Source: Sulfurimonas sp. (GTDB taxonomy: Bacteria; Campylobacterota; Campylobacteria; Campylobacterales; Sulfurimonadaceae). Taken from it: a DNA stretch of 64,000 nt. Every line of letters begins with the position of its first letter. Positions within the stretch are counted from its first letter, which is position 1. Of this stretch, positions 4,268-20,381 are shown one piece after another. Below the pieces are notes generated by a model that was not told the origin of the DNA, made no database searches, and saw nothing but the letters and a program-made list of their open reading frames with translations. A program made the position numbers and the translations under genes. The stretch is from contig JAUZRZ010000062.1 in NCBI GenBank assembly GCA_030949945.1, positions 1 to 64,000 of the forward strand. Direction: 5' to 3'.

Positions 4268-4899
4268 AAAGTAAGAAAGATGAGACTAATCCAATAAGCC
4301 CACCAAATACACCACCCCAAACAACAAGCCAGTCTAAGTGCTCTTTTATGAGTGTTTGAACTATCTCTTTTACAAGCTCTGGTGTGAGTTCATTTAGGCG
4401 GGAGTCTATGACGGACTCTATGGAGTTTAGCATATCCTCGTTAAGTGAAGAGTTTTGGAGATGCTTTTTGCATAGTGGCATTAAATGCTTCAGAGTTTAC
4501 TATTTTGATGACAGCTACTTTCATCTTAGATGAAAAAGGTTCACGAAGAGTCTCTAATGCTGATTCTCCGCCAAACATACCAAGCATTCCTCCAAAAGAG
4601 GATTCCATCACTGTTTTAGAAAGAGCATCAAACGCAGGGGTAAAGTCTGTATCTTGTATGATAGGTTCAAGGTTGATTTTTTGCTCTTCATTTGCAAAAA
4701 AGTTCTCTAGTTGTTCGGGAGTGAAAAATTCATTCATCATAAGATTTTTTATGGATGACTTAAAGGCTTCAAAACGCAGAGGAATAACACCACTTCCATA
4801 AAGAAGTGGTACTTTTTCAAAAAGCATATGAATGGCTAGTTGATTTGTAAGTGCTCCTGAGAGGGCAAAAAGACCTGTAAAAAGTAGGGCAGAGTGCAA
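4266..4899 (-). CDS. DUF445 family membrane protein, one frameshift
   Basis: Two ORFs (4441-4899 and 4266-4481) join across an A run near 4460 to give one protein: ALTNQLAIHMLFEKVPLLYGSG at the start, then an extended helical region, then a C-terminal membrane segment with GGVFGGLIGLVSSFLL. That layout, with membrane ends, a long helical middle and the TN-x-LAI-x-MLF motif, is the DUF445 (YheB/YjiN-like) pattern. The function is not established. The start is uncertain: the track begins at a TTG, but the same frame continues upstream as a hydrophobic stretch (LALILIGVSFLFVEL) with no obvious ATG, so the N terminus may carry another indel. A TATAAT-like box on the minus strand lies near 4960. 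Confidence 0.7.
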
Positions 4900-5006
4900 C
4901 TCTACAAAGAGAAATGAAACTCCTATTAGGATGAGTGCAAGTGTACATTTGTTATAATACTTATTATAGAATTTATTAGATCATAGGAGTAAAGGATACT
5001 CCATTA

Positions 5007-5405
5007 CTATTTTTTGTAAGGGTAAGTTTTCATCTTCAGCCCTTTTGTCGCATACTCCATCCCACCTAAGATATTTATAACCTTATAGTTGAGCTTTTGT
5101 GACATCCACGGTGCTATCATTGAAGTTCGACTTCCTGTATGACAGATGATGGCAAAAGGTTTTGTTGTATCAACTTTTTCATTTAACTCTTTTAAAAAAA
5201 CATTAAGGTCGTATTTCCCTTTTTCGTTAAAAAACTCTATGGGTATTGCACCTTTTAAAACTCCTCCATCCCTCCACTCGCCAACGGTTCTAATATCTAC
5301 AATAGGCAGTTGTGAGTCTAACATTTCTTGTGTCATATATGAGTTTTTTAGCTCTGCAAAAAGTGAAACAGAGATAAGCATCAATAGTAAAAGTATTTTT
5401 TTCAA
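5007..5405 (-). CDS. Periplasmic single-domain rhodanese
   Basis: The mature protein is one rhodanese-like domain with active-site loop CHTGSRTS, so a catalytic cysteine is present; such domains carry sulfane sulfur or act as sulfur-transfer proteins. The track extends to 5549, but the likely start is TTG at 5405-5403, preceded by GGAG with 7-base spacing. From there a clean signal peptide reads MKKILLLLMLISVSLFA, which places the domain in the periplasm. The extra 48 residues of the longer ORF look like shadow sequence of the divergent gene at 5462. Sulfur handling fits a sulfur-oxidising Campylobacterota, but the substrate is not shown by the sequence. Confidence 0.8.
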   Translation of the reverse strand: MKKILLLLMLISVSLFAELKNSYMTQEMLDSQLPIVDIRTVGEWRDGGVLKGAIPIEFFNEKGKYDLNVFLKELNEKVDTTKPFAIICHTGSRTSMIAPWMSQKLNYKVINILGGMEYATKGLKMKTYPYKK

Positions 5406-5461
5406 TTTGTTCTCCAAAATAAACTGTATAATTATAACAATAATATTTAAATAGGAATACA

Positions 5462-5833
5462 ATGGCAGCATCCGCAAAAGCGATAAACAATGCAAATAGA
5501 CTTCGTTACATTCGAGCACTTGAGCGTTTTCATAAAGGAATGATTTCATTTTTGATGAATACTCCTGAACTTACACATAAAAGTTTGAACAAAAAGATAG
5601 ATAATTCTGTGAAACTTCTCAAGAGAATTGATGAGATAGACTTGTATAAGGGTGAACTCAAAGATTTGCAAATTCTTGTTAAAAAAATTATTGGCTATAA
5701 AGATTCTGAGGATGATATAGAGAATATAAAAGAAGAAATTTTATATGCTTCAAATCAGCTTGATAAAAATAAAAATGCAAAACGCTATAAAAAAGATAAA
5801 CATGCGAACTCTATGTTTGATGACTGGGAATAG
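5462..5833 (+). CDS. Conserved hypothetical, helical, 123 aa
   Basis: A soluble, lysine-rich and predicted all-helical protein with no signal peptide, membrane segment or motif I recognise. It opens MAASAKAINNANRLRYI and ends in an acidic MFDDWE. A weak AGGAA precedes ATG 5462. It is nine bases upstream of a response regulator and in the same direction, so it is probably transcribed with the two-component pair. A regulatory or adaptor role is possible but unsupported. Confidence 0.65.
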   Translation: MAASAKAINNANRLRYIRALERFHKGMISFLMNTPELTHKSLNKKIDNSVKLLKRIDEIDLYKGELKDLQILVKKIIGYKDSEDDIENIKEEILYASNQLDKNKNAKRYKKDKHANSMFDDWE

Positions 5834-5842
5834 TGTAGTAAA

Positions 5843-6497
5843 ATGGCAAGAATACTACTCTTAGAAGATGATATAACTCTTGGAGATACTCTTTGTGAGC
5901 TTTTAGAGTCTGAGGGGTATGAACTCTCTCTTGTAAGACTTGGCAATGATGTCCTAGACTTAACACAAGAGCAAAGCTTTGAGTTAATGCTCTTTGATGT
6001 AAATGTACCAGACTATAATGGCTTTGAGCTTTTAGCGAGTCTTAGAGAGTCAGGTGACACTACCCCGTGTATCTTTTTAACCTCTTTAAATGACATCGCT
6101 TCACTCTCAAAAGGTTTTGAAGTTGGTGCTGATGATTATCTAAAAAAACCTTTTGACTTTGATGAACTGACTTGTTCGTATAAAAGCACTACTACGTAAA
6201 TCTTTTCAAGCTCAAGAGAATGAGATACACTATAAACATCTACTCTATAAGATAGCAACAAATGAACTTTTTGATAAGAATAAGCTTCTCGCTCTAGCAC
6301 CGCAAGAACAAAAACTAATGGCACTTTTTTTTAAACAAATAGACAAAACAGTAAGTAAAGAAGCACTACTCTTTGAGCTTAATCGAGAAAGCGAAGCAAG
6401 CGAGGGAGCACTACGGGTATATATTACTAAGCTACGTAAAGTTGGGCTTGAGATAGAGACTCTCAAAGGTACAGGGTACAGACTTGTTAGAGTATGA
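5843..6497 (+). CDS. OmpR-family response regulator, one frameshift
   Basis: Receiver domain (residues 1-115): acidic pocket LEDD, phosphoacceptor Asp at about 52 in MLFDVNVPD, and conserved Lys in LKKPFD. The track stops at 6199 because of a shift near 6165. In the next frame the protein continues as LLVRIKALLRK, then a winged-helix DNA-binding domain (ALAPQEQKLMALF, SEGALRVYITKLRK, IETLKGTGYRLV) to TGA at 6495-6497. That is the full two-domain OmpR/PhoB architecture, about 217 residues. Its stop overlaps the kinase ATG (ATGA), so the two are translationally coupled. Confidence 0.88.
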
Positions 6498-7551
6498 AAA
6501 AACAGCATTTTGGAAGTTTTTTAGTATTTACTTTGGAAGTGTAGCTATTCTCATCTTGGCTGCTGGCTATTTTTATTTTACAGAGCAGGAAAAGATACTG
6601 ATAAAAAAAGAGCATTTTTCTATGATTGAACATATTAGAAAAATTAAAATGAACCGACATGAAGCACATACCGATGGAATTACCCATACTGTAGTATATA
6701 CCCAAATCCCTGCGTTTAATATAAATAACTTTACTATTAAAGAGAACTATTTTGAAGCTTTTATCCCCTATAGTTGGGATAGTGGATATTACAGAGTTCG
6801 AAAAAATAAAGATACTTTTTATAAACTACTTTTTGATATTAAAATAAAAATTATTTTGATGCAAGCAGTTCTCTTACTACTCTTTGCAAGTATTAGTTAT
6901 TTACTCTCTTGGCGTGCACTGCGACCGATGCAAGAGGCGATAAATAAGCTAGATAAATTTTCCAAAGATTTGATTCACGACTTAAACACACCAGTCACAT
7001 CAATACTACTTAACACTAAAATACTAGAGCGAACAATAGAAGAATCAAAAGCACTTACTCGAATCAAAACAAGTGCCAATGAGATAGGTGAACTACATCA
7101 TAACTTAACAATACTCCTTCAAGAAGATACTTTTGTTATTCAAAATGAGAATGTTTTTGAGATAGTCGAAGATGTAGTCAATACTCAAAAAGGTATTTGT
7201 GAAGATATTCGCTTTATAGTTGAGCATAGTTATTTAGAAGAAAAAGTGAATAAAGATGCCCTAAAACAAATTCTGACAAATATAGTCTCAAACTCCTGTA
7301 AATATAATAAAAAAGATGGTATCGTAAAAATTTATGCAAAAAAGAGTTCTCTTTATATTGCAGATACGGGGATTGGTATAGAACAACCTGAGGCTGTATT
7401 TGAGAGAAAATATAAAGAGCATAAAAGTGGATATGGAATAGGGCTAGATATAGTAAAGCGCCTCTGTGATGCTATGGAGATAGAGATTTCACTCTCTTCG
7501 CAAAAAGAGAGAGGGACGCTTGTCGTACTAAAGTTTAAAAACTATATGTAA
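6494..7551 (+). CDS. Membrane sensor histidine kinase, partner of the upstream regulator
   Basis: An N-terminal transmembrane helix (about 5-28), a periplasmic region of roughly 90 residues, a second helix (about 115-138, ILMQAVLLLLFASISYLL), then a HisKA domain with H-box IHDLNTP (His near 161), N-box NIVSNSCKY, G1 ADTGIGI and G2 GYGIGLDIV. The track starts at TTG 6484, but the natural start is ATG 6494 overlapping the regulator stop; A6 there should be A7 to give MKKTAFWKFF. The sensor region is too short and diverged to name a ligand. The 3' end overlaps the convergent DUF1302 gene by 17 bases, so a missed indel in either end is possible. Confidence 0.85.
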
Positions 7552-8952
7552 TATCCATAAAAAGTTTGTCATTATTACTAATGGCATTTGCAAAAGGTCT
7601 ATCCGACTTTATAGCTGTGTCAAGGTAGTCAATAACTCCGATATTTGCAACTACTGCATCGGCTACATCATACTCTAAAGAGGCTCTAAAAAATCCACCA
7701 TATTGCCAGTTATGTCCAAACATACTTAGAAGTAGTGTCGCATTTAGTGTGTCATTTCGCATAGAGTGAGTTACTCTAAATGCAGTCTGTAGTTCATCTT
7801 CTTGAACATAATCAGGAACATATCCAATTGTCATTCCTGACATCTGCTTTTCATGATTAAAAATATGGCGATTAGCTAATTCAAGTGAGAGTACAGTATC
7901 TGAGATACCCATATAGTCTACACCTAGAAGTGCATCGAAGCGACTCTTCTCATCTTGTGTTGAGTTGTACTTTAAGGAGTCTATAAACGCAGCCTCACTT
8001 TTAAAAAGCCAACTTCCCTCTACTATGTTAAACGCAGTACCTAAGATCTGTATTTTTGAGACTACTCGTGCAGCATTTGGTAGAGTTCCCTCCAAGTGCC
8101 ATCTTGAGTCATATACATCAGCCCCATAAAAAGAGATGTCCCAGCCTGAGAAAACACCATTAAGAGAGAGGGCATACTGTGTATTATCCAGACGTGCTTT
8201 GGGGTTGGACTAACTCTATAAAAGGGTTTGGTGCATTTGGAAAAACTTTGTCTGCTGGAAAATACTCTCCAAAAGGGGCAGGTTCTAAGAAAATACGACT
8301 CTCAAAAATTGCCATAGCACGAGAGACTCCAGTCTCCAAAGTAATAGTCGAGTTTTGCCATAGATGTAGGTAAACGCAGATCTTCTATATCTGTCATACC
8401 AGGGAGTCTATTGTCAAGTGGATTGATAACATCGGTAATACGAATACTATCTGACTTTCCCCAAACTACAATTTGACGACCAACTTTGAGGTCTATATCA
8501 CGAGTGAGTCTTCCTTGTATATATGTATCATCAAAACGCAGCTGGGTACGGTATGCATTGAGTACATCATCATTAAAGGTCTGATTACTTACATCATAAT
8601 AGGCATCATAAAAACCATCACCACTTACTCTCATCTTCCAATCATCATTAAACTTGTAGTCAGCTTGTAAGAAGAGGGCAGTTTGTGCTTGATTTATCCC
8701 GCTATACTCTACACCATCCACACTATGGTCTCTGTAGCCATAAGCACTCTTAAAGGCGATGTTTCCACTTAATGTGAAGTTACTTGGTGTTTGAGACTCT
8801 TCTTCATCGGTGATTATCTCCTCACTGCTATCAAGTATCTCTTCATCAAAGCCTCCAAAGTCTAACTCTAAGTCTTCCTCTGCATGAAGCTCTATGAGTG
8901 AGAAAAGAAGTAATAAAAAGTAGCTAAGCTTACGAATTTTTCTCAAACTCAT
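7535..8952 (-). CDS. DUF1302-like outer-membrane protein, frameshifted
   Basis: The N terminus (8302-8952) has a signal peptide MSLRKIRKLSYFLLLLFSLIELHA, then an acidic linker (LDFGGFDEEI), then alternating strands typical of a beta-barrel (DDWKMRVSGDGFYDAYYD, LKVGRQIVVWGKSDSIRITDVINP). The VGRQxVxWG...VxNP pattern is characteristic of DUF1302 porin-like proteins. The middle lies in a second frame (8096-8301), and the C terminus (7535-8095) ends in aromatic MDITYSF, a classic outer-membrane barrel signature. It is the last gene of an operon with a LolA-like protein and an RND exporter, so it probably accepts or passes the same cargo at the outer membrane. The cargo is unknown. Confidence 0.8.
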
Positions 8953-8953
8953 A

Positions 8954-9736
8954 TTAGATACCGCGTTCTAATGTTCTTGTAGTAAAAAGAGACTCATCTA
9001 AGTCTTGATTGTATTTGATATTTGAAAATTTAAAAATAGACTTATGAAGCATTTTTTTACCTTTTTTTGTTATCATCTGCATCTCTTTTACTGTCCAGAT
9101 ACCATCAAGAAGTTCTAACTCTTTAACCATCATATACTTCAGTTTTTTCCCTTTTTTGATGTAGTTAAGTGCCTGAATGATAACAAAGTTATCTTGTCTT
9201 ACAAAAACAATACTTTTCTCATAACCTGTCTCTTCTACTGTTTTTTGAGTTTTAGGAGTAACAAGCATTTGCCATGTCTTATGCCCTTTAATAGTAGGCT
9301 CTTTCATAATTTTATAAGTATAATCTGAAACATTTCTACTTGTCATATCTGAGTAGGTAAAATCACTTCCCATAAAAGAAGAACTTTTATCACTTGAAGC
9401 GATACGTTTTACCTTGCGAAGTGCTGGAAGATAGAGCCACTGGTCATCATCAGCATTTGAATCTTCATAATCATATGTTAAAAAAGCTGTATTTTTTACA
9501 TCAGCAGGAGAGAGAAAAAAGAGAAGTTTGAGTGTATCTTCACCTCTGTTTTTTGTATAGACTTTTAAGTTACGCACTCTCTTTTTATTGCTTTTGTCTA
9601 TAAGTATCATCTTCATATCTGAGATGATATTGTCTCCCTCATCTCTATCGTGTACTTTTTGTGCTATCTCTTCGCCTGTTATGGCAAAGAGAGAAGTGAG
9701 TGTGAGTGTTGCGAGTAGTAGTATTTTTATAAACAT
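8954..9736 (-). CDS. Periplasmic LolA-like protein (outer membrane lipoprotein-sorting protein family)
   Basis: A 260-residue protein with signal peptide MFIKILLLATLTLTSLFA. The body matches the LolA_like family (PF17131): RDEGDNIISDMKMILIDK near the start, LKLLFFLSPADVKNTAFL, WLYLPALRKVKRI, and FMGSDFTYSDM. This fold carries a hydrophobic ligand across the periplasm. It overlaps the RND gene by one base at 9736 and is one base from the DUF1302 start, so the three are one operon. The arrangement suggests the RND pump loads this carrier, which delivers to the outer membrane. That route is inferred from family and context. Confidence 0.85.
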   Translation of the reverse strand: MFIKILLLATLTLTSLFAITGEEIAQKVHDRDEGDNIISDMKMILIDKSNKKRVRNLKVYTKNRGEDTLKLLFFLSPADVKNTAFLTYDYEDSNADDDQWLYLPALRKVKRIASSDKSSSFMGSDFTYSDMTSRNVSDYTYKIMKEPTIKGHKTWQMLVTPKTQKTVEETGYEKSIVFVRQDNFVIIQALNYIKKGKKLKYMMVKELELLDGIWTVKEMQMITKKGKKMLHKSIFKFSNIKYNQDLDESLFTTRTLERGI

Positions 9737-12117
9737 TATTTATCCTTTGTGATAAGAGTCAGAAGTGCTGGCCCTAAAATGATGTTGGCTAGTAGTGCTA
9801 TGAGAATAGCACCACCTGCAAGAATTCCGAAGTTTACAAGGTTACTTAAACTTGCAAACATATAAACAAAAAATCCAAGGCTCAGGACTACTGAAGTAGC
9901 AACAAGTGCTCGACCTGTTCCTACCATGGTCATCTCAACTGCCTCTTGTGTAGAGTAACCTTGATGATGATACTTTGCAAAGTTATGAAAGAAGTGGACA
10001 GTATCATCAACACTTAGACCTATAACGATGGCACCTACTAGCATAGTAAAAAGGTCAAGTGGCATATCTACAAGTGCCATAAAACCAAGTGCTATGATGA
10101 TAGGCAGAAGGTTTGGCAGCATACTTATAAGACCTATTTTAAAGCTCCCAAGTAAGATTACCATCATAATTGCGATAAGTACAAATGCCATAAGGTAAGA
10201 TGTAGCCATTGAGTCCATCGCTGCTACAAGTGTTCTTTGAAAGAGTGGTACCATACCTGTTATGGTTACCTCTGCATGATTTCCTAACTTTTCATGAAGT
10301 ATTTTTTGGAGTTCATCACTAATGGCAGTATATTCGCTCGCTTCCATCCAAGGGAGTTTAAATGTAACTCTAGCCTTGCTCATACTTGCATCGACAAAGT
10401 CCTCTAAGTCATCGCTACCAGAGTTTTCAAATAGTAAAAATTCTTGAGGGATAAGGGAATCATTATCAGTTATTCGGTAGTACTCGGGCTTGTTTTCATG
10501 TAGTGCTCTATGAATCTCTTTTAGAACATCCCCAACACTCCAACCCTTACCTACAAAGTGTGTATCGGTCTTAAATTTTTCTAGTTCATGAACTGCTATC
10601 ATCTATTTTTTGAAGTAAAACAGCATCATAAAGACCATTCTCTTTTTGTGTATCTATGATAACTTCCATAGTTACAGAGCCACGAAGTGCCTTATCTACT
10701 TTAAAAGTAGAGATTTTTATAGGGGAGTCATCTGGCTGCCATGAGAGTGTATCGTGTTTAAATGAGACTTTCATTGCTAGGTATATAAATGCAACCGCGA
10801 TGATAAAAGAGACAAGAACAATCTTTTTGCATGTAAAAAACTAAAATCAGCAATAGCTAAAAGAAAGTTATCCATTCTTTTTGATGCCTCAACTGCAGAG
10901 TGTTTTGGCTTAAGTGGAAGCACACTTAAAAGAGCAGGAAGTAAAACAATAGTGTTAAGGAGTGCAATAAGTACACCAAGTGCTCCAAAAACTCCTAGTG
11001 CTGCAATTGGCTCAAGTGAAGCAGTAGAAAAGGAGAAGAGACCAGCTGCTGTAGTGAGCGAAGTCATTATGATAGCTAAGCCAGAGTGTCCTAGTGAGTG
11101 GACAATAGCCTCATCTTTATCACCATGCTCATTAAAGTGTTTAAAAAACATAGAAAGAAGGTGAACTACTGCTCCTATACCAACGGCGAGTAAAAAGGAT
11201 GGAAGAATTTGTGTTGGAATAGTGATGGGAGTTCCAGCGATAGCCATAAAACCAATGGTAGTAAGTAGAGAAATAAGTACAATAAAGATAGGAAGTAGCA
11301 CAGCACTTAAACGCCTAAAGACAACAAAAAGAAAAATCATCATTATAAGAATTACAAGTTTTACAAATTTTTGCATATCTTTTTGTACTGACTGTTTATT
11401 GTAGTCATTTACAGCTAGTGAACCTGCTACATAAACACTAAAGTCATCGCTGTTAAACTCTTGTGCTATCTTATTAGCAGCTCGAACCATTTCACTCTTT
11501 GATGGGTCTGTTAAAAACTCTGCATGATTCTCTTGAGTCTCTTCTTCACCAAAACCTTCTAAATCATCTGCACCCTCAACACTCTCATAAGCACTCGGCT
11601 CTAAGATAATTGTTGTGAAGTTATGGGCTGTATTGTAGAGTAGATTTTCATACATTGCATTATTTAAAGCAGTTTTTTTGATCTTTGAGAGTTCTTTGTC
11701 TGTAGTAGGAAAGTTCTCCATAAGGTCTTCAACTATAAGACTATCACCTTCTCCACGAGTATTTCTTGCATTTATTAAAGAAGTTATGTCGTTAAGGTGG
11801 GGAACATTATGCTCTAGCTTATCGTGAAGTTTTTGTAGTTTAGTCAGAGTAGGGAGAGAAAAAATATCTTTTGCTTCTACTATCACCATGATTTTTTCAT
11901 CTTGACCAAACTGTTCTTTAAATGCTTCATAACGAATAAGAGCAGGGTCGTTAGCCTTTAAAAACCCTTCTGTTGAAGTATCAATAGTAATAAAACGCAG
12001 GTTGGAAATGATAACAATACTTATTAATAACATGACAAATATTGTTTTTTTCGCATTCTTAGTGATGGATTTACCCATCTTTTGCAGTTGTAATTCGCTA
12101 GAAGTTTTCCAGTTCAT
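9736..12117 (-). CDS. RND/MMPL-family exporter, two frameshifts
   Basis: Three ORFs (10777-12117, 10586-10774, 9736-10602) join into about 793 residues, normal for an RND protein with two MMPL halves. Each half has one N-terminal helix, a large periplasmic loop and a five-helix bundle: VKLVILIMMIFLFVVFRRLSAVLLPIF in the first half, and LLGSFKIGLISMLPNLLPIIIALG then VIGLSVDDTVHFFHNF in the second. The D-D pair in GLSVDDTVHF fits the proton-relay helix. Shifts lie near 10835 (joins FLHAKK to IVLVSFIIAVAFIYL) and near 10600. MMPL proteins usually move lipids or other hydrophobic compounds. It heads the export trio and is preceded by an inverted repeat covering its ribosome-binding site. Confidence 0.9.
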
Positions 12118-12120
12118 AAT

Positions 12121-12172
12121 GTTAGCCTTATAATTTAATATACTAATGTTAGTTAATTAAGATTAGGCTAAC
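12121..12172 (-). promoter_or_regulatory. Inverted repeat overlapping the RND gene leader and ribosome-binding site
   Basis: GTTAGCCT (12121-12128) and AGGCTAAC (12165-12172) are perfect 8-bp inverted arms, with additional GTTAG/CTAAC and CTAAT/ATTAG copies between them. On the minus strand the gene-proximal arm supplies the AAGG that looks like the Shine-Dalgarno of the RND gene (ATG at 12117). A dimeric repressor site or RNA switch is plausible; no regulator gene is adjacent. Confidence 0.5.
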
Positions 12173-12185
12173 GTTAAGAGGCATT

Positions 12186-12632
12186 TTAACCCATTTGAAC
12201 AGAATCAATCTCACCTTTAAACTCAATAATAGAAAAATTAACTTGATTGGCTATTGACTCAGGTGTATTTCTCCTTAATGCTGAATCTCTTAGGCGAATC
12301 TTGCGTGTTGGTTTATTATATTCACCAATTACATATGTTACTAAGATGTAAGGGTCTGTGTGCAAATCACAACTTGAAGATGTTGTTTCAATTTCTGGAA
12401 CACAATACTCAATCTCAATATCTGGATCTACCATTGACTTGTTTACAATCTCTAGTACTTTTTCCAATTTCTTATGAAGTTCTTCTTTTTCTTCTTCTAA
12501 CTCTTTTGGATCATTGAGAAGCATTAAAATTTTTTCTAATTTTTCTTTAATCTCATCTTCCATTACAGTTTCTTCTGTATCATTGAGAAGTGCTACCACC
12601 TCTTCAAGTTTAACTTTGATTTCTCGTTCCAT
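12186..12632 (-). CDS. Unknown tandem paralog B: three coiled-coil repeats plus a conserved C-terminal domain
   Basis: I do not recognise this 148-residue family. Residues 1-70 hold three copies of a roughly 24-residue helical repeat with core KLEEVVALLND, KLEKILMLLND and KLEKVLEIVNK, each preceded by an E/K-rich turn. The C-terminal part (about 85-148) carries DPYILVTYVIGEY, TRKIRLRDSAL, and a final SIIEFKGEID. There is no signal peptide. It shares architecture and about half its residues with the next gene upstream (12665-13098), and even the same ribosome-binding leader (AGGAGAATTATTATG), so the pair arose by tandem duplication. The RND export genes follow 69 bases downstream in the same direction. 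Confidence 0.8.
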   Translation of the reverse strand: MEREIKVKLEEVVALLNDTEETVMEDEIKEKLEKILMLLNDPKELEEEKEELHKKLEKVLEIVNKSMVDPDIEIEYCVPEIETTSSSCDLHTDPYILVTYVIGEYNKPTRKIRLRDSALRRNTPESIANQVNFSIIEFKGEIDSVQMG

Positions 12633-12664
12633 AATAATTCTCCTAAAATAGTTAATTATGAGCT

Positions 12665-13098
12665 TTAGCCCATTCTTATATCATCAGCTTCTTCTTTGAA
12701 ATTTTCAATAGAAAGAAGGATGTGTTTTGCTAAGTCCTCAGGTGAACTCTGTAGAGCTACTTTCCCTAAACTTACCTTACGTGTTCGTGTAGTATATTGG
12801 TCTTCACTATAGGTCAATAAAATGTATGGATCTTCTGAGACTGCATCTGCTGTTATATCAGGTATACAGTAGTTAACATCTACTTCAAAGTCAATCATTG
12901 CATCATTGGACAAGTGCAATAACCTCTTCTATTTTTTGATTTTAGTTCTCTTTTTTCCATTTCTATTTTTTCTGGATTATCTAGTAGGGCTAAAACTTTT
13001 TCAAGCTTCACTTTAACTTCTTTATCTAATACCACTGCATCTGAGTCATTGAGAAGTTTTACAACTTCTTCAAGTCTCTCTTTAATTTCAGTTCTCAT
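12665..13098 (-). CDS. Unknown tandem paralog A, two indels in the middle
   Basis: Same layout as paralog B: MRTEIKERLEEVVKLLND, EVKVKLEKVLALLDN and a third repeat that reads ELKSKIEEVIALV only after correcting an indel near 12940. The C-terminal half (ORF 12665-12919) carries DPYILLTYSEDQY, TRKVSLGKVAL, ILLSIENFKEE. A second shift near 12908 joins the repeats to SNDAMIDFEVDVNY. Corrected length is about 144 residues. It has a good extended minus-10 sigma-70 promoter upstream (13156-13184) and is the first gene of the operon that probably runs through the RND, LolA-like and DUF1302 genes. Function unknown. Confidence 0.75.
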
Positions 13099-13155
13099 AA
13101 TAATTCTCCTAAAATGATATAGCCAGAATAAAAATATTTACCTGTACTTGTCATA

Positions 13156-13184
13156 ATTCTAGCATAAAAACAAAATTGTATCAA
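13156..13184 (-). promoter_or_regulatory. Sigma-70 promoter of the paralog A operon
   Basis: On the minus strand TTGATA (13184-13179), a 17-base spacer, and TAGAAT (13161-13156) preceded by TG at the extended minus-10 position. It lies 58 bases upstream of ATG 13098. Confidence 0.7.
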
Positions 13185-13211
13185 TAAATTATAATAGATT
13201 ATAATCTTACA

Positions 13212-13244
13212 AAATATTTAAATAATATACTTATTTAAATATTT
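13212..13244. repeat. Perfect AT-only palindrome between the chemoreceptor and paralog A
   Basis: AAATATTTAAATAA (13212-13225) and TTATTTAAATATTT (13231-13244) are perfect 14-bp arms around TATAC. It lies between the MCP stop (13302) and the paralog A promoter. It may be an AT-rich terminator for the MCP gene or a regulator site; there is no G or C in the stem. Confidence 0.6.
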
Positions 13245-13301
13245 AACATTGGAAATTATGAGTGCAAAGTTAAGTTGTTAGCGTAAAGTTTTTGTTTGAA
13301 T

Positions 13302-15210
13302 TTAACCTTTATACTCTTCTTCTAACATACTGTCCATAAAACTAAAGAGTTCATCAGATGCTTCTTCCATTTTTTCAAAGTTAGCAACTATGGTGTCAGC
13401 ATTAGAAAGTGTCTCTGTCTCTGGGTCGTTATGCAAGAAAATAAGGTTAGCATTTACATTTTTATGGACTAAGGCATGTGGGGCTGCAATCTTAGAGAAT
13501 GCATTAGAACTTGAGAACCTCTCTTTTCCTTCTGAGTCATACCACATACCAAGATTACACTGATGAGAATTAACCTCTTTAAGAATTGGTTCAAGGGACA
13601 TTATGGAGTTGTAAGCACGAGCTTTATAGAGAATATGATCAATTTTTGCAAGAACTATAAAGGTACTGTTCTCCATGTGGTGAGAACTCTCTACTATATG
13701 AGTTGAGCCATCACTTAACTCTATTAAAGTTTGCTCAAACTCTTCTACCTTCTGGGTTGTTGTATCAACTGTCTCTTTCATACTCTCAGATGAGCTTTGA
13801 ATCTCATTCATACCTTGTTGGAGTGACTTAATACTCACTGAGATTTCACTTGTTGCCTTATGTGTACGTTCTGCTAGTTTGCGGACTTCATCAGCAACTA
13901 CGGCAAACCCACGACCATGCTCTCCCGCACGAGCAGCCTCTATAGCTGCATTTAGTGCAAGTAAGTTTGTCTGATCTGCGATGTCAGTAATAAGCTCAAT
14001 AACAGATGTAATACTATTAGTTTGGTTTGCTAACTCTTCTACACTAGCATTATTTATACTAACTTGTTCATTGAGATTGTGTAACTCCGCTACTGCTTGA
14101 ATAATATTTTCACGAGTGTTAGTTGATAAATCTGCAGCAGATTTTGTAGAGGCAGTAACTTCTTTAAGATTTTCAATATTAGTTTGAAGGTTCTTTTGAA
14201 TTACAGTTAAAGATTCTGAAACATTTCTACTACTTTGGCTTAGTCGTGCATTAAAAGTATCTCGCAGAGCTTTTGAGTGTTGTTCTTGCATGAAGTTTAT
14301 ACTACTCATTACACTATTAACTGCAACTACAAACTCTCCATCCATTCCCTCTGCTGATATAGCTTGGGAAAAATCACCATGTGAAGCATCTGTAATAGCA
14401 CGGTTTATTTCATTGATTAAGGTACTTGTATGTGCAATTAAGATGTTTAAACTTATACCCATCTGACCGAGTTCTGTATCTTTGTTGTTATTATCTGCTT
14501 TTTGTGAAAAGTCACCTTGTGCTGAGAGAGAAATAAGATGTGTAAATTTGTTTATTCCATTTGTAACTGACTTTTTGATAAGAGTTGCAAGTATGAGAAC
14601 AAGAAAGCCAATTATAATTCCTGATACAAGTACTAAGTACTTGCTAAAAAATATTTCCCGCTCTAAGCCTTCAGAATCTTCTTTGAGTTGCGCTTGTTTA
14701 AGATTGACTAACTTTTTAAAAGCAACTCTTGATCTGTTGGCATAAGGTGTAAGTTCTGTTTTATATTTTTCTATAGAGTGTTGGCGCATCGTTTTTAATC
14801 TGTTCTTTAGAAAAACTCAGCATCATAGATAATGAGTTTTCTAAAAATAACATAGTGCTTGATTGTGCTTTTTTAACCATTTCTAAAGAGCTAGCGTCTG
14901 TTGCCATAATATCTTTTAAATGATCAAACTCTTTACGAATATTTTCAATACTTGATTTTAGTTTCTCAATATCTTTTTGATAGTCACCACCAAGCATAAT
15001 ATCTCTTGTCGTTCTACTCACATAGTTCATGTTTTTTTCAATTTTTAAAACACTAAATCCAGCACTCATAGAGTTGTGACGAAGATGCGAATACTCACTT
15101 TCAATATTGGACATAGCCCAAAAAACAAATATGGTTGCACAAAAGATAGCAACAGTTGCCATGGTGATTAGGTAGTTCATCTTTTTCTTAATACTCATAC
15201 TCTCAAACAT
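13302..15210 (-). CDS. Methyl-accepting chemotaxis protein with C-terminal CZB zinc-binding domain, one frameshift
   Basis: ORFs 14761-15210 and 13302-14789 join near 14785 into about 636 residues. N-terminal TM helix (about 12-32), a four-helix-bundle periplasmic sensor ([24 protein letters not shown]), a second TM helix ([20 protein letters not shown]), HAMP, then the signalling hairpin with the invariant tip [20 protein letters not shown] and [15 protein letters not shown]. After it comes a CZB domain: an early His ([12 protein letters not shown]), CNLGMWY, and a later HALVH, the zinc-binding 3His/1Cys set. CZB receptors sense zinc or oxidants such as hypochlorous acid. A consensus sigma-70 promoter precedes it. 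Confidence 0.92.
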
Positions 15211-15238
15211 ATAAATCCCTTTATTTTTAAGTAATTTT

Positions 15239-15267
15239 ATTATAACCGAAATATTTTAAAAGTCCAA
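15239..15267 (-). promoter_or_regulatory. Sigma-70 promoter of the chemoreceptor gene
   Basis: On the minus strand TTGGAC (15267-15262), a 17-base spacer and TATAAT (15244-15239). It lies 29 bases upstream of the MCP start, which also has AAGGGA as ribosome-binding site. Confidence 0.75.
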
Positions 15268-15314
15268 TTATTAAGTAATTTATTCTTAGAAAAGGAGCCA
15301 TTAGTCACTACTTC

Positions 15315-15323
15315 TGTTATAAT
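15315..15323 (+). promoter_or_regulatory. Extended minus-10 promoter of gdhA
   Basis: TGTTATAAT (15315-15323) is a TGn-TATAAT extended minus-10 box, 40 bases before the gdhA ATG at 15364; AGGA at 15354-15357 is the ribosome-binding site. No clear minus-35 box is seen, as is common in Campylobacterota. Confidence 0.6.
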
Positions 15324-15363
15324 ACAATTACAATTAAACTAAGTAATAAAATTAGGATTATAA

Positions 15364-16719
15364 ATGTCAATAACAAGCGATACAATAAAAAAATTTGTGA
15401 AAAATGATTGTCCAGAAGATGACATTTTTTATCAAGCGATGGAAGAGGTTATCTGTTCTATTTCACCTCTACTAAAATCAGATGATAGATATAAGAAGTA
15501 TGCAATACTTGAGCGTTTAGTTGTACCTGATAGAATTATCAAGTTTAAAGTTGCATGGTTAGATGATAATAATGAAATACAGGTAAATACAGGTTTTCGT
15601 GTTCAGTTTAACAATACACTAGGACCCTATAAAGGTGGACTGCGTTTTCATCCAACAGTAAATGAGGGGATACTAAAATTTTTAGGGTTTGAGCAGATTT
15701 TAAAAAACTCTTTGACAGGCTTGCCAATAGGTGGTGCTAAAGGTGGAAGTGATTTTAATCCTAAAGGAAAAAGTGATTTTGAAATAATGAAGTTCTGCTC
15801 ATCATTTATGGTCGAACTCCATAAGTATATTGGTCCACGCATAGATGTACCAGCTGGCGATATAGGTGTTGGAGGGAGAGAGATTGGATATCTTTTTGGT
15901 GAGTATAAGAAAATAACTTCTTCACATCAGGGAGTCTTGACAGGAAAACCTTTTGTATTTGGTGGCTCACTTATGCGTCCTGAAGCTACAGGATATGGGG
16001 CTGTTTATTTTACTCAAAAGATGCTTGAGATAGAAGCAAAAGAGCCACTAGAAGGCAAAATATGTACCGTTAGTGGTGCAGGAAATGTTGCTCTTCATGT
16101 AATTGAAAAATTACAACAAATTGGTGCTATACCAGTAAGCTGCAGTGATTCTAAAGGTACTTTATATGATTCTCGTGGTCTTGATTTAGCACTACTCAAA
16201 GAACTTAAACTTGAGCGTCGCGTTTCACTTGAAGAGTATGTGAAAACACATGAGAGTGCGAAGTACACTCCAGTGAGTGAGTATCCTGAGCATGCACATG
16301 CAGTATGGGATATTCCATGTTATGCTGCGTTTCCTTGTGCTACACAAAATGAGTTAAATGAAACAGATGCACACAACTTGATAACGAATGGGTGTGAGAG
16401 TGTAACTGAGGGTGCAAATATGCCTTCAACCCTAGAAGCAACGGCAGCGATTTTGTCACATAAGTTATGTTTTGCTCCAGCTAAAGCAGCAAATGCAGGG
16501 GGTGTAGTTGTAAGCTCATTTGAGATGTCTCAAAATGCAGCAATGACTCGATGGACTTTTGATGAGGTTGATGAAAAACTTAAGCTAACTATGCAACAGA
16601 TATGCACACGTGTTGCCTTAACTGCTAAGGATTATGGAGTAGAAGGAAACTATGTAGATGGTGCAAATATCGCAGGCTTTAAAAAAGTAGCTGATGCAAT
16701 GATTGCAGAGGGTATCTAA
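15364..16719 (+). CDS. gdhA: Glutamate dehydrogenase, hexameric small-subunit type
   Basis: An intact 451-residue enzyme for ammonia assimilation: 2-oxoglutarate, ammonium and NAD(P)H to glutamate. Conserved motifs are PYKGGLRFHPTVN (substrate-binding Lys near 93), LPIGGAKGGSDFNPKGKSD (catalytic Lys near 125), VPAGDIGVGGREIGYLFGEY, and the Rossmann turn VSGAGNVALHVIEKL near 235. Length and motifs fit the GdhA family, usually NADP-dependent. The MscS gene begins on the base after the stop, so they may share a transcript, though their functions have no obvious link. Confidence 0.96.
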   Translation: MSITSDTIKKFVKNDCPEDDIFYQAMEEVICSISPLLKSDDRYKKYAILERLVVPDRIIKFKVAWLDDNNEIQVNTGFRVQFNNTLGPYKGGLRFHPTVNEGILKFLGFEQILKNSLTGLPIGGAKGGSDFNPKGKSDFEIMKFCSSFMVELHKYIGPRIDVPAGDIGVGGREIGYLFGEYKKITSSHQGVLTGKPFVFGGSLMRPEATGYGAVYFTQKMLEIEAKEPLEGKICTVSGAGNVALHVIEKLQQIGAIPVSCSDSKGTLYDSRGLDLALLKELKLERRVSLEEYVKTHESAKYTPVSEYPEHAHAVWDIPCYAAFPCATQNELNETDAHNLITNGCESVTEGANMPSTLEATAAILSHKLCFAPAKAANAGGVVVSSFEMSQNAAMTRWTFDEVDEKLKLTMQQICTRVALTAKDYGVEGNYVDGANIAGFKKVADAMIAEGI

Positions 16720-18543
16720 ATGTTCTTGTATACGGTTTTTACTTTTTTTTATAATTTTTAGCATATCTGTTTTTGCAACAAATATTAAGTATAGCCCATT
16801 TATTTTATCTCAAATGAGTATAGTAGAAAGAATGAATGATAGTAATGCAACGCAAGCGAGTATTGCAAAATTATTAAAAGAACAAAATAGTTTATATGAA
16901 AAGACCGTGAATTCTATTATGTCTAATAAAAATAAATTTATTCAAAATATAGAACTTTATGAAGATGAAATATTTTCCGCTCAAGAAAGTAATGATGATT
17001 AATAAACGAGCAGGTAATAAGTTTGCAGTTTTACGTGATGAAGTTGCTTTGAAAATTTATCTTGTTTTACGTTCTCAAAATAGAATGTTTAAAGCAATAC
17101 TGCTTGCTTTAGATTCTAATACTATCGAAGCATATGAGAAAAAACTTAATGATATTGTGGGAGTGAATCAAAAAGAGATACAAACATATTTTCAAAAAGA
17201 TTATACTGAGTTCCTTGCAATAGATAGCGATAGTAAAATTTTACAAATAGCGAAAAAAAATATCCATGATTTGTCTGTTTTACAGAGTGTAAACTCTGAC
17301 TTAGTCAGTTATATTTATAAATTTAGTACAAAAATGTATAGATTAAATAAGTATTCTAAATATCATCTTATCTCTGTTGTTATATACATCAACTCATTAG
17401 CAGTAGTTGAGGTGCTCAATCCTATCTTAGAGCCTTATGGATTAAGTGTAATTAAATTAATCTCAATGCTCTTACTTATTGTGATGATATATTTCTTTAG
17501 AAAAGTGGTTTATGTTTACTTGGAACGTTATATTTTATCTCTTGAGTTACTGAGCCAATACTCTAAGGAAATCTCTCAAAAAATTAAATCTTCTATAGAG
17601 TCATTAGTAATAGTGATAAATATAAATATGATTATTTATGTTTACAATGATTTTAGTTCCGTTGAACTAATTTCGAGATTTTTTAATATGATATATGGAT
17701 TTTACTTTACATTAATTCTCTATAAGGTAGTAAATACTGTGGCTCGAATTAAACTCGCTAGTGTCACAAGTGCTAAGTCAAAAATCAAAAATGATTTAAT
17801 AAATGTTGGTCTTAAAATCATCAACTTTATCATTTTAGTAATAGGACTCCTTAATACTGCTCTTTTTTGCAGGAGTGAACTTAACTGCTGTTCTCTCTGG
17901 TCTTGGTATTGGTGGTTTTGCTGTTGCATTTGCTGCTAAAGATACCATCTCGAACTTTTTTGGAACACTCTCTATACTTTTTTCAGATGTATTCTCACAA
18001 GGAGATTGGATAGAGATAGATGGGAATCAAGGAGTTGTCGTTGAGATAGGTCTGCGTGTTACAACTATACGCACCTTCGATAATGCACTTATAGCCATCC
18101 CAAATGGAACCTTTGCTTCTAAAGATGTAAAAAACTGGGATAAACGCATACTCGGGCGTCGTATAAAAATGCACATTGGTGTGAAGTATGACTCTAAAAG
18201 TGAAGATATAAAAAATGCGATACAAGAGATAAGAGTGATGCTTGATAAACATCCACAAATTGCAACAAAAGCAACAAAGTATTCTCACCATAACGAGAGA
18301 ACTCATACCGCTAAACTTGTCTCAAAAGATGACTTAGAAGGGGTGAAAAACAACTTGCTTGTTTATCTCGATGAGTTCTCAGACTCAAGTATAAACATCC
18401 TAATATACTGCTTCTCAAAATCTGTCAAATGGGCTGAGTGGCTAGAGACAAAAGAAGATGTAATGCATAAGATAATGGCTATTTTAGAGAAAAACAATTT
18501 AGAATTTGCTTTTCCTTCACTCTCTATTTATAAGGAAAAATAG
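16720..18543 (+). CDS. Large MscS-family mechanosensitive channel, three frameshifts
   Basis: Reading ORFs 16703-17002, 16959-17939 and 17875-18543 together gives about 607 residues. ATG 16720 follows the gdhA stop directly; an extra T in the T8 run (about 16743-16750) separates it from the signal-peptide frame (IIFSISVFA). A roughly 180-residue periplasmic helical region (QSEL and LLKEQN repeats) precedes several TM helices. Next is the pore helix TM3, GLGIGGFAVAFAAKDTISNFFG, and the beta domain (FSQGDWIEIDGNQGVVVEIGLRVTTIRT). The length and periplasmic domain resemble long MscS proteins (YbdG/MscK-like). Shifts lie near 16748, 16990 and 17870. Confidence 0.9.
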
Positions 18544-18670
18544 AACTTTACAACTGATATTACAGACTTTTCTCCTTATAGTCCGTAACACAAGTTAATG
18601 TAGATTCTAAAGCTAAGTTTCAGTCTATTTGGATAGAATAATTTTACAAAATTCCATATAAAGAATATCT

Positions 18671-19288
18671 ATGCAACAGACACAATCAAGAATCAACCTT
18701 TATGCACTCCTCTCTCGCATCATGCTCCAAGAGTTAGATGTGGAGATGTTACAGATGATAAAAAATGATGAAAACATCTTAGACTTTTTCCCAACTTTGA
18801 AAAAATGGGCTCCTCTTAATGAGTTAGCAGAGCAGAAACTTTTAGAAGAGGTCATCAACCCTGACTTTGTAAACCTTTCTGTTTTACATCTTATCCCTTA
18901 TGAAACTTTTTATACACGAGAAGATCAAATGATAGAAACAGGTGGGGCAAACCCCGTAACTGACATCTACTCTGCTTATGACTTTATGGTTGACTATGAA
19001 GTGGCTCGTACACTCTCATCAGATCATATAGGTGTTGAGTTAGAGTTTATGCACCATTTAGCAAACGCAGAGCTTCAAGCACTTAAAGATAATAACAATG
19101 ATGCTGTAAAAGAGCTTAGAGAAACACAACATGAGTTTTTAAACAAGCACCTCTTGCAGTGGGCACCTCTGTATTTTATAAATATGAAATACGAAGCGAG
19201 AACACCACTCTATTATGATGCAGCTGAGATGGCTTTGGAGTTTATACTGAGTGATAATGAGTATTTAACAAGTGAGATTAGTGCATAA
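18671..19288 (+). CDS. TorD-family cytoplasmic chaperone
   Basis: A 205-residue all-helical protein with the TorD/DmsD signature: LIPYETFYTRE (about 77-87) and SDHIGVELEFMHHLANAE (about 117-134). Such chaperones bind the twin-arginine leader of a molybdopterin oxidoreductase and protect it during cofactor insertion. The next gene, a polyferredoxin, starts on the following base. No molybdoenzyme is in the window, so the client is elsewhere; formate dehydrogenase, nitrate or sulfur/polysulfide reductases are the usual candidates. Start ATG 18671 is the first in frame. Confidence 0.85.
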   Translation: MQQTQSRINLYALLSRIMLQELDVEMLQMIKNDENILDFFPTLKKWAPLNELAEQKLLEEVINPDFVNLSVLHLIPYETFYTREDQMIETGGANPVTDIYSAYDFMVDYEVARTLSSDHIGVELEFMHHLANAELQALKDNNNDAVKELRETQHEFLNKHLLQWAPLYFINMKYEARTPLYYDAAEMALEFILSDNEYLTSEISA

Positions 19289-20250
19289 ATGTTACAGTTA
19301 AACGCGGGACTTTGTGTTCGTTCACTAAGTGTAGAGAGTGAATGTAACAAGTGTGAACTTGTATGTCCAACTACGGCTATTGCTATTGGTGAGAGTAACC
19401 TTCCTGCTATTAATTTTTCAGAGTGTGTTACTTGTGGAGCTTGTACTGCGATATGTCCTAGCGAGGCACTGACCCTAGATGAGTTTGATGCAACGAACTT
19501 CTTTTTGATTTTGTTGAAGATGATGATACCCTTTTATCTTGTCGTAAAAATGTTCCTTGTATTTCTGCTCTTAGTATAGAGCATATTATCTCTTTAGCAG
19601 TGCTAAAAAAAGAGTTAGTATTTGATATGGGCTATTGTGGGGATTGTGATATTGCGCACACTTGTCATAAACAGATACTCTCAAACTATGAAGAAGCTAC
19701 ATATCTTTTAGAAGCTATGGAGAGTGAAGCGGTTATAAAGTTAGAAAATATTTGTTACACGAACGAGTCTAAGAGTTCTAAACGCAGGGACTTTTTAAAT
19801 GCAGCAAACCTCAAAACAGTAGCAAAAGTGAAAAAAAGTTTCGAGGATGAAGTACAAAAAGCGAGTGATGAACTCACAGAACATACTTTAGAAAAAACAG
19901 ATATAGCACTTCTAAGACGTAAAACAATTCCAAATCGCCGTAAGATATTTTTTACTGCGATAAAAAGAGCAATAAAGCCCTCACAGTTTCATATAATAGA
20001 TGCTACTGAAGTTAGCTTTACTTCTCAAAAACTGATGGATGAAGAGGCTTGCACCGCATGTCAGATGTGTTATCGTGTCTGTCCAACGGGTGCTCTTGTC
20101 TCAGATGTGAAAAACTCTAAAATAGACTTTGATCCATTTTTATGTATAAAGTGTCATATTTGTCATGATGTATGTGAACCAAATGCTATTACCTTAGCTG
20201 ATTCATATAATGTCAAAGAGTTTTTGAGCCAACAGTACAAAACCTTATGA
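19289..20250 (+). CDS. Multi-cluster 4Fe-4S ferredoxin-type protein, one frameshift
   Basis: ORFs 19289-19579 and 19600-20250 join (shift near 19495-19505) into about 320 residues. The N-terminal domain has CNKCELVCPTTAI and CVTCGACTAICPSEAL; the C-terminal domain has CTACQMCYRVCPTGAL and CIKCHICHDVCEPNAI. So there are four 4Fe-4S-type motifs as two 2[4Fe-4S] modules at the ends. The middle has additional cysteines (SCRKNVPC, CGDCDIAHTC). No signal peptide is visible, so it is cytoplasmic. It likely passes electrons to or from the TorD client or helps its maturation. Its stop overlaps the ATG of the next small gene (ATGA). Confidence 0.85.
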
Positions 20251-20381
20251 GTTTTAATGTTCGCCGTTGTGATGAATGTGATGTGGTTTTTAGTACAAAT
20301 AGTGCGGATAAAATGTGTTATAGATGTAAGTGTGAAGAGGAAGAAGCACGAGAACTTTGGGGTATTACAGATGATATGTAA
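20247..20381 (+). CDS. Small cysteine-rich protein, 44 aa
   Basis: Too short for the ORF track. It reads MSFNVRRCDECDVVF at the start, CYRCKCEEEEA in the middle and ends GITDDM, stop TAA 20379-20381. The cysteines form CxxC (8, 11) and CxxCxC (24, 27, 29), a zinc-ribbon-like or rubredoxin-like knuckle. The ATG overlaps the stop of the ferredoxin gene (ATGA), which argues for translational coupling and a real gene. I do not recognise a family. A metal-binding accessory for the TorD/Fe-S module is a guess. Confidence 0.65.
   Translation: MSFNVRRCDECDVVFSTNSADKMCYRCKCEEEEARELWGITDDM

Follow-up and report, generated by a model that had tools for sequence, protein, structure and literature searches.

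A conserved RND pump, LolA-like carrier and DUF1302 barrel operon in Sulfurimonas as a probable exporter of hydrophobic compounds

The apolar monoterpene efflux system AmeABCD of Castellaniella defragrans joins an HAE3 RND pump, a DUF1329 protein of the LolA superfamily and a DUF1302 protein in one cassette, and mutants without ameABCD tolerate monoterpenes less well and accumulate more Nile Red (PMC6394551). By family, the same three functional parts as in the operon described here are found in P. putida as PP_0765 (DUF1302), PP_0766 (DUF1329), PP_2018 and PP_2019, but there the genes lie in two places, one more periplasmic protein is present and the phenotype concerns growth on Tween 20 (PMC10866462). 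In the aryl polyene system ApeL-ApeM-ApeN, delivery to the outer membrane likewise relies on a LolA-like carrier together with an RND transporter, though the system uses a LolB-like DUF3261 partner instead of a DUF1302 barrel and is tied to polyene synthesis (PMC8253772). A "lipoprotein-sorting" carrier also adjoins an MMPL pump in Bacteroidota, in an iron stimulon, but those operons contain ABC ATPases and a TetR regulator, and DUF1302 is not reported in them (PMC13103446, PMC10434189). Related RND pumps move lipid toward the outer membrane in HpnN and in the three-compartment BstA-BstB-BstC system, with other carrier and outer-membrane proteins and with known cargo (PMC10942540).

The operon studied here resembles AmeABCD in having a DUF1302 outer-membrane protein in the cassette (PF06980 above cut-off) and a LolA-superfamily periplasmic protein (PF17131, with a DUF1329 match and the 4z48 fold), whereas its carrier belongs to PF17131 with DUF1329 the weaker match, its pump comes first in the gene order and no hydrocarbon-degradation island is linked to it. 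No extra gene that could stand for AmeC (COG4447/Ycf48) lies within the trio at any close locus, except for a second pump in one (L057); because AmeC is missing, we regard the operon as a variant and not as a member of AmeABCD. AmeABCD is nevertheless the closest known system, and by analogy the operon probably works like it. The first-pass annotation had proposed a route distinct from Lol and Mla, and the engine does differ, as the carrier has an RND pump as its partner in place of LolCDE, and the Pfam families found are MMPL-type, LolA_like/DUF1329 and DUF1302, with no MlaC, MlaD or MlaA among them. However, the route is not of an unknown kind, because AmeABCD has the same three-part plan and ApeL/M/N an altered form of it; RND-plus-carrier routes are already represented by the AmeABCD, P. 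putida, aryl polyene and Bst sets. What this locus adds are new details, namely a conserved upstream repeat, the loss of the TM4 acid and an OlsF-bearing sister operon.

The window, by which we mean the whole stretch of 64,000 nucleotides analyzed, is contig C62 of a draft genome that is 83% complete, and the nearest kin of its carrier gene come from Sulfurimonas MAGs and single-cell genomes. Three genes follow one another on the minus strand: an MMPL/HAE3-like RND pump in two halves (9736..12117; Pfam and alignment of relatives), a LolA-like periplasmic carrier of PF17131 (8954..9736; Pfam and fold match, frame intact) and a DUF1302 outer-membrane beta-barrel (7535..8952; Pfam, barrel model and ITYSF end). 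The pump stop and the carrier start overlap by one base (TAATG, 9736), and one base lies between the carrier stop and the barrel ATG (8954/8952). On re-reading of the sequence, the coordinates, strand and one-base junctions given by the first-pass annotation were exact and its families were correct; the pump and the barrel, however, are not single open frames, which it had not seen.

Compared with relatives, the pump is read in the pieces 12117-10825, 10831-10601 and 10593-9739 with changing frames, which places its breaks at about 10825-10831 and 10593-10601, and the barrel is read to about 8310, then at 8318-8196 and at about 8203-7538. All relatives with enough contig harbor an intact pump of 793-801 aa and an intact barrel of about 390-494 aa. 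The same 16.6 kb also contains a broken response regulator, a broken chemoreceptor (13302-15210) and broken genes at 12665-13098, 16730-18540 and 19289-20378, giving about ten frameshifts within this segment against intact relatives (window 4269-20378). Because the relatives are intact and unrelated neighboring genes are broken likewise, the breaks in the pump and barrel likely reflect indel errors of the draft and not decay of the operon; the assembly being indel-prone, the split ORFs of the window should therefore be read with care. Genuine frameshifts, with pump and barrel as pseudogenes in this strain, would agree with the two breaks in each gene, but we rejected this highly improbable reading since comparable breaks occur in at least five unrelated genes within the 16.6 kb and the encoded pieces still share mostly 60-88% (pump) and 49-80% (barrel) identity with the intact proteins of close relatives. 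The window sequence was left unmended, and intact orthologues served for models and searches. Upstream of the pump, two paralogous small proteins of no known family are encoded at 12186-12632 and 12665-13098, and their kin sit between barrel and kinase in two related loci (L043, L054). An Rfam search of the window matched no RNA element.

The three-compartment arrangement suggested at first pass was supported by Pfam and fold matches for all three proteins. Pfam MMPL was detected above cut-off on two pump pieces (1.4e-25 on ORF 12117-10777 and 2e-16 on ORF 10602-9736). The best model for an intact pump orthologue was TIGR00921 (HAE3), at 227 bits against a cut-off of 351.9, while the HpnN models gave 167 bits against 751.85 (TIGR03480) and 72 against 1100 (NF052374), and the score was far under the BstA model cut-off. 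The DD motif is kept in TM10 of the pump and the acid is missing from TM4, which reads GIGAVVH in the operon pump versus AIGDSIH in a second pump that the same genome encodes. This second pump, also HAE3-like, is unlinked to the operon (C68:7420-9837, L074), and it is 79% identical to a second pump located inside the operon in another genome (G015, L057), one of two loci with tandem pumps at the operon, the other being L049.

The carrier, 260 aa in length, matches PF17131 LolA_like at 8e-57 and DUF1329 more weakly (40.6 bits against a cut-off of 23.1), and its N-terminus is hydrophobic and signal-peptide-like. Its structure model, of moderate confidence (pLDDT 67), matches the structures of P. 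gingivalis LolA3 (9tp6), a DUF1329 protein (4z48) and 3bk5; LolA3, the closest solved homologue, has a hydrophobic groove (PMC13103446). For the barrel, DUF1302 (PF06980) was found above cut-off on two pieces (1.5e-21 on ORF 8952-8302 and 9.4e-7 on ORF 8095-7535), and an orthologue was modelled with about 18 strands at moderate confidence (pLDDT 67), Foldseek returning porins and AlgE near 1e-11. Searching the solved structures with the barrel sequence yielded no match. The window barrel ends in ITYSF and the C-terminal aromatic SF is present in 11/11 aligned barrels, so that the predicted fold and the C-terminal aromatic signal together identify an outer-membrane beta-barrel.

A close carrier was found in 12 genomes of the genus, and the order pump-carrier-barrel is kept in 12/12 as far as the contigs reach. 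The order is also kept in a further genome of the genus (G189), in other families (G042, G043, G164 and G250) and in a gammaproteobacterial MAG (L053), with intergenic gaps mostly between -13 and +15 nt (16 loci). When 249 genomes were drawn evenly from the phylum, DUF1302 exceeded its cut-off in five, and all five copies adjoin a PF17131 carrier and a pump. Within the genus, the carrier and the pump lineage co-occur in 12/12 genomes versus 1/25 (Fisher p = 7e-9), two genomes having entered the count via partial pumps at contig edges. Pairwise distances among the three proteins correlate with rho 0.81-0.87 over 16 loci, a value to which genome kinship contributes. Chance grouping is excluded because the gene order is conserved across families, and the pump, carrier and barrel genes are inherited together; the rare co-occurrence that would have counted against the first-pass proposal was not what we observed. 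One exception is G047, in which the carrier stands alone (C88, L059:9229-10020) and the pump is on a different contig; this carrier is 56% identical to that of the window and adjoins a fructose-bisphosphatase gene. A linked biosynthetic gene, which had been suggested as a pointer to the cargo, did not emerge: the examined neighbors of the close loci comprise signaling genes (kinase, regulator, chemoreceptor), glutamate dehydrogenase and unrelated genes, with no cargo or lipid gene. The proA gene beside a distant copy in G001 was not accepted as a clue to the cargo.

Convergent with the barrel gene is a sensor histidine kinase (6484..7551, plus strand; Pfam HisKA and HATPase_c), whose orthologues occupy the same locus in several relatives. 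It is preceded by a response regulator on the plus strand (5843..6494), whose receiver domain and nearest, OmpR-type models were obtained by profile search; its frame is broken near 6170-6184, and the protein has 217-223 aa in relatives. On the minus strand at 12162..12177, starting 60 nt before the pump ATG, lies a direct repeat, TTAAC-N6-CTAAY (TTAACGTTAGCCTAAT), with an 11-nt period. In the window and in seven further loci (L043, L044, L047, L048 as a variant, L051, L054 and L055), the distance from the start of the repeat to the pump ATG is 60-63 nt. The repeat is absent upstream in G006, G032 and G031, three genomes in which we did not detect a close orthologue of the neighboring kinase. 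Against a consensus drawn from operon promoters alone, a copy with two mismatches also precedes the unlinked second pump, by 59 nt in the window's genome (G000) and by 61 nt in G019.

A relaxed form of the repeat pattern gave 10 sites in 16 genomes against about 8 by a first-order chance estimate. As the count is no higher than chance, we rejected it as evidence for a regulon, which therefore leaves position and neighboring genes to argue for one. Four of the five sites outside the pattern-building set precede an OEP-HlyD-MacB-ABC set (G000 C69), an OEP-MFP-AcrB set (G029), Wza/Wzz (G019) and kinase-regulator orthologues (G036), and sites beyond the window are located in L074 (9896), L111 (10245), L127 (8835), L130 (8791), L131 (9048) and L129 (9070). 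The repeat is possibly the binding site of the regulator of the neighboring two-component system, and its occurrence before several export systems and a kinase-regulator pair marks a candidate two-component export regulon. The Campylobacter DccRS regulon was sought in the literature as a precedent for the repeat, and only a general description of it was found.

We consider, with a probability of roughly 0.6, that the operon uses proton energy to export a hydrophobic or amphiphilic compound, its outward direction and class of cargo being inferred. Judging from its family, the RND pump would pick up its substrate in the inner membrane or at the periplasmic face of that membrane and pass it on to the LolA-like carrier. 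A hydrophobic groove in the carrier, expected from homology of the fold, would shield the cargo across the periplasm. The carrier would then deliver to the DUF1302 barrel, and the modelled barrel may release the compound outside or into the outer membrane. The neighboring histidine kinase and OmpR-type regulator would probably induce the operon via the candidate site about 60 nt before the pump, and the unlinked second pump and other efflux systems might be switched on jointly with it. Against export, no cargo gene is linked and the pump lacks the TM4 acid that its relatives among the second pumps keep.

Alternatively, the operon might supply lipid for building the outer membrane, regularly carrying an envelope lipid such as an aminolipid, a reading that we hold to be possible but unlikely. 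PF17131 carriers occur in the phylum in at least three settings: pump-carrier-barrel, carrier-OMP-RND, and together with FtsX/MacB permeases and an ABC ATPase. In the second of these, a sister operon with tight junctions, a PF17131 carrier is followed by a protein without Pfam family in the OMP position and by an HAE3-like RND pump, and in seven genomes OlsF, the bifunctional ornithine lipid synthase, comes directly after it (as at L063:8198-14609, L064:8149-14626, L065:8095-15124, L066:6364-12821, L093:3400-9832 and L094:8480-15263). The OlsF of L063 is above the NCBIfam cut-off, and the OlsF proteins of L065 and L094 have an additional GGDEF domain; the adjacency suggests an aminolipid as the cargo of the sister operon. 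Lipid delivery is also consistent with the hopanoids and sterols carried by the pump relatives HpnN and BstA (PMC10942540) and with OlsF in the window's own genome, where it stands alone. On the other hand, OlsF does not track the pump-carrier-barrel operon in the genus (7/12 vs 12/25, p = 0.73) and is missing from the near-complete operon-bearing genomes G032, G042, G164 and G250, for which reason ornithine lipid was rejected as the cargo of this operon, to which no lipid gene is linked. We consider it more likely that the operon detoxifies or secretes a hydrophobic compound than that it serves constitutive membrane building. At six loci (L072, L073, L100, L102, L103 and L106) the carrier gene adjoins genes for FtsX/MacB-type permeases, in most cases together with one for an ABC ATPase, and ABC engines accompany only the more distant carrier paralogues.

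A broader scheme, which we regard as doubtful, would have the linked pump without the TM4 acid and the unlinked, co-regulated second pump that has it share one LolA-like carrier and one DUF1302 barrel, both being switched on by the dedicated two-component system with AcrB-/MacAB-type pumps as one export regulon, while the sister conveyors would carry ornithine-type lipids.

The operon could also serve uptake, with the barrel admitting a hydrophobic substrate, the carrier ferrying it inward and the pump importing or assisting, and this we judge improbable. Sulfurimonas are mainly autotrophs, which counts against uptake, as do the lack of degradation genes linked to the operon and the fact that RND pumps of known direction mostly export. 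P. putida requires PP_0765 and PP_0766 to grow on Tween 20 (PMC10866462), and full growth on phenanthrene requires a DUF1329 gene according to work cited in PMC13101534, both of which would fit uptake, but the AmeABCD data point to export (PMC6394551). It is very hard to maintain that the operon sorts lipoproteins or assembles outer-membrane proteins with its carrier as a true LolA, as the Pfam name of PF17131 and the LolA fold would allow, since the engine is an RND pump and not LolCDE, the carrier family adjoins RND pumps in two operon types, and P. gingivalis LolA3, the nearest solved relative, barely binds LolB and is without the conserved arginine (PMC13103446).

It is poorly understood how cells move hydrophobic compounds across the periplasm in the absence of an MFP-TolC tunnel. 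If the operon is an exporter, as we favor, this compact three-gene set with its soluble carrier, conserved in free-living Campylobacterota, would provide a model in which RND-driven carrier transport can be tested, and the pairing with OlsF would give the sister system a direct candidate cargo.
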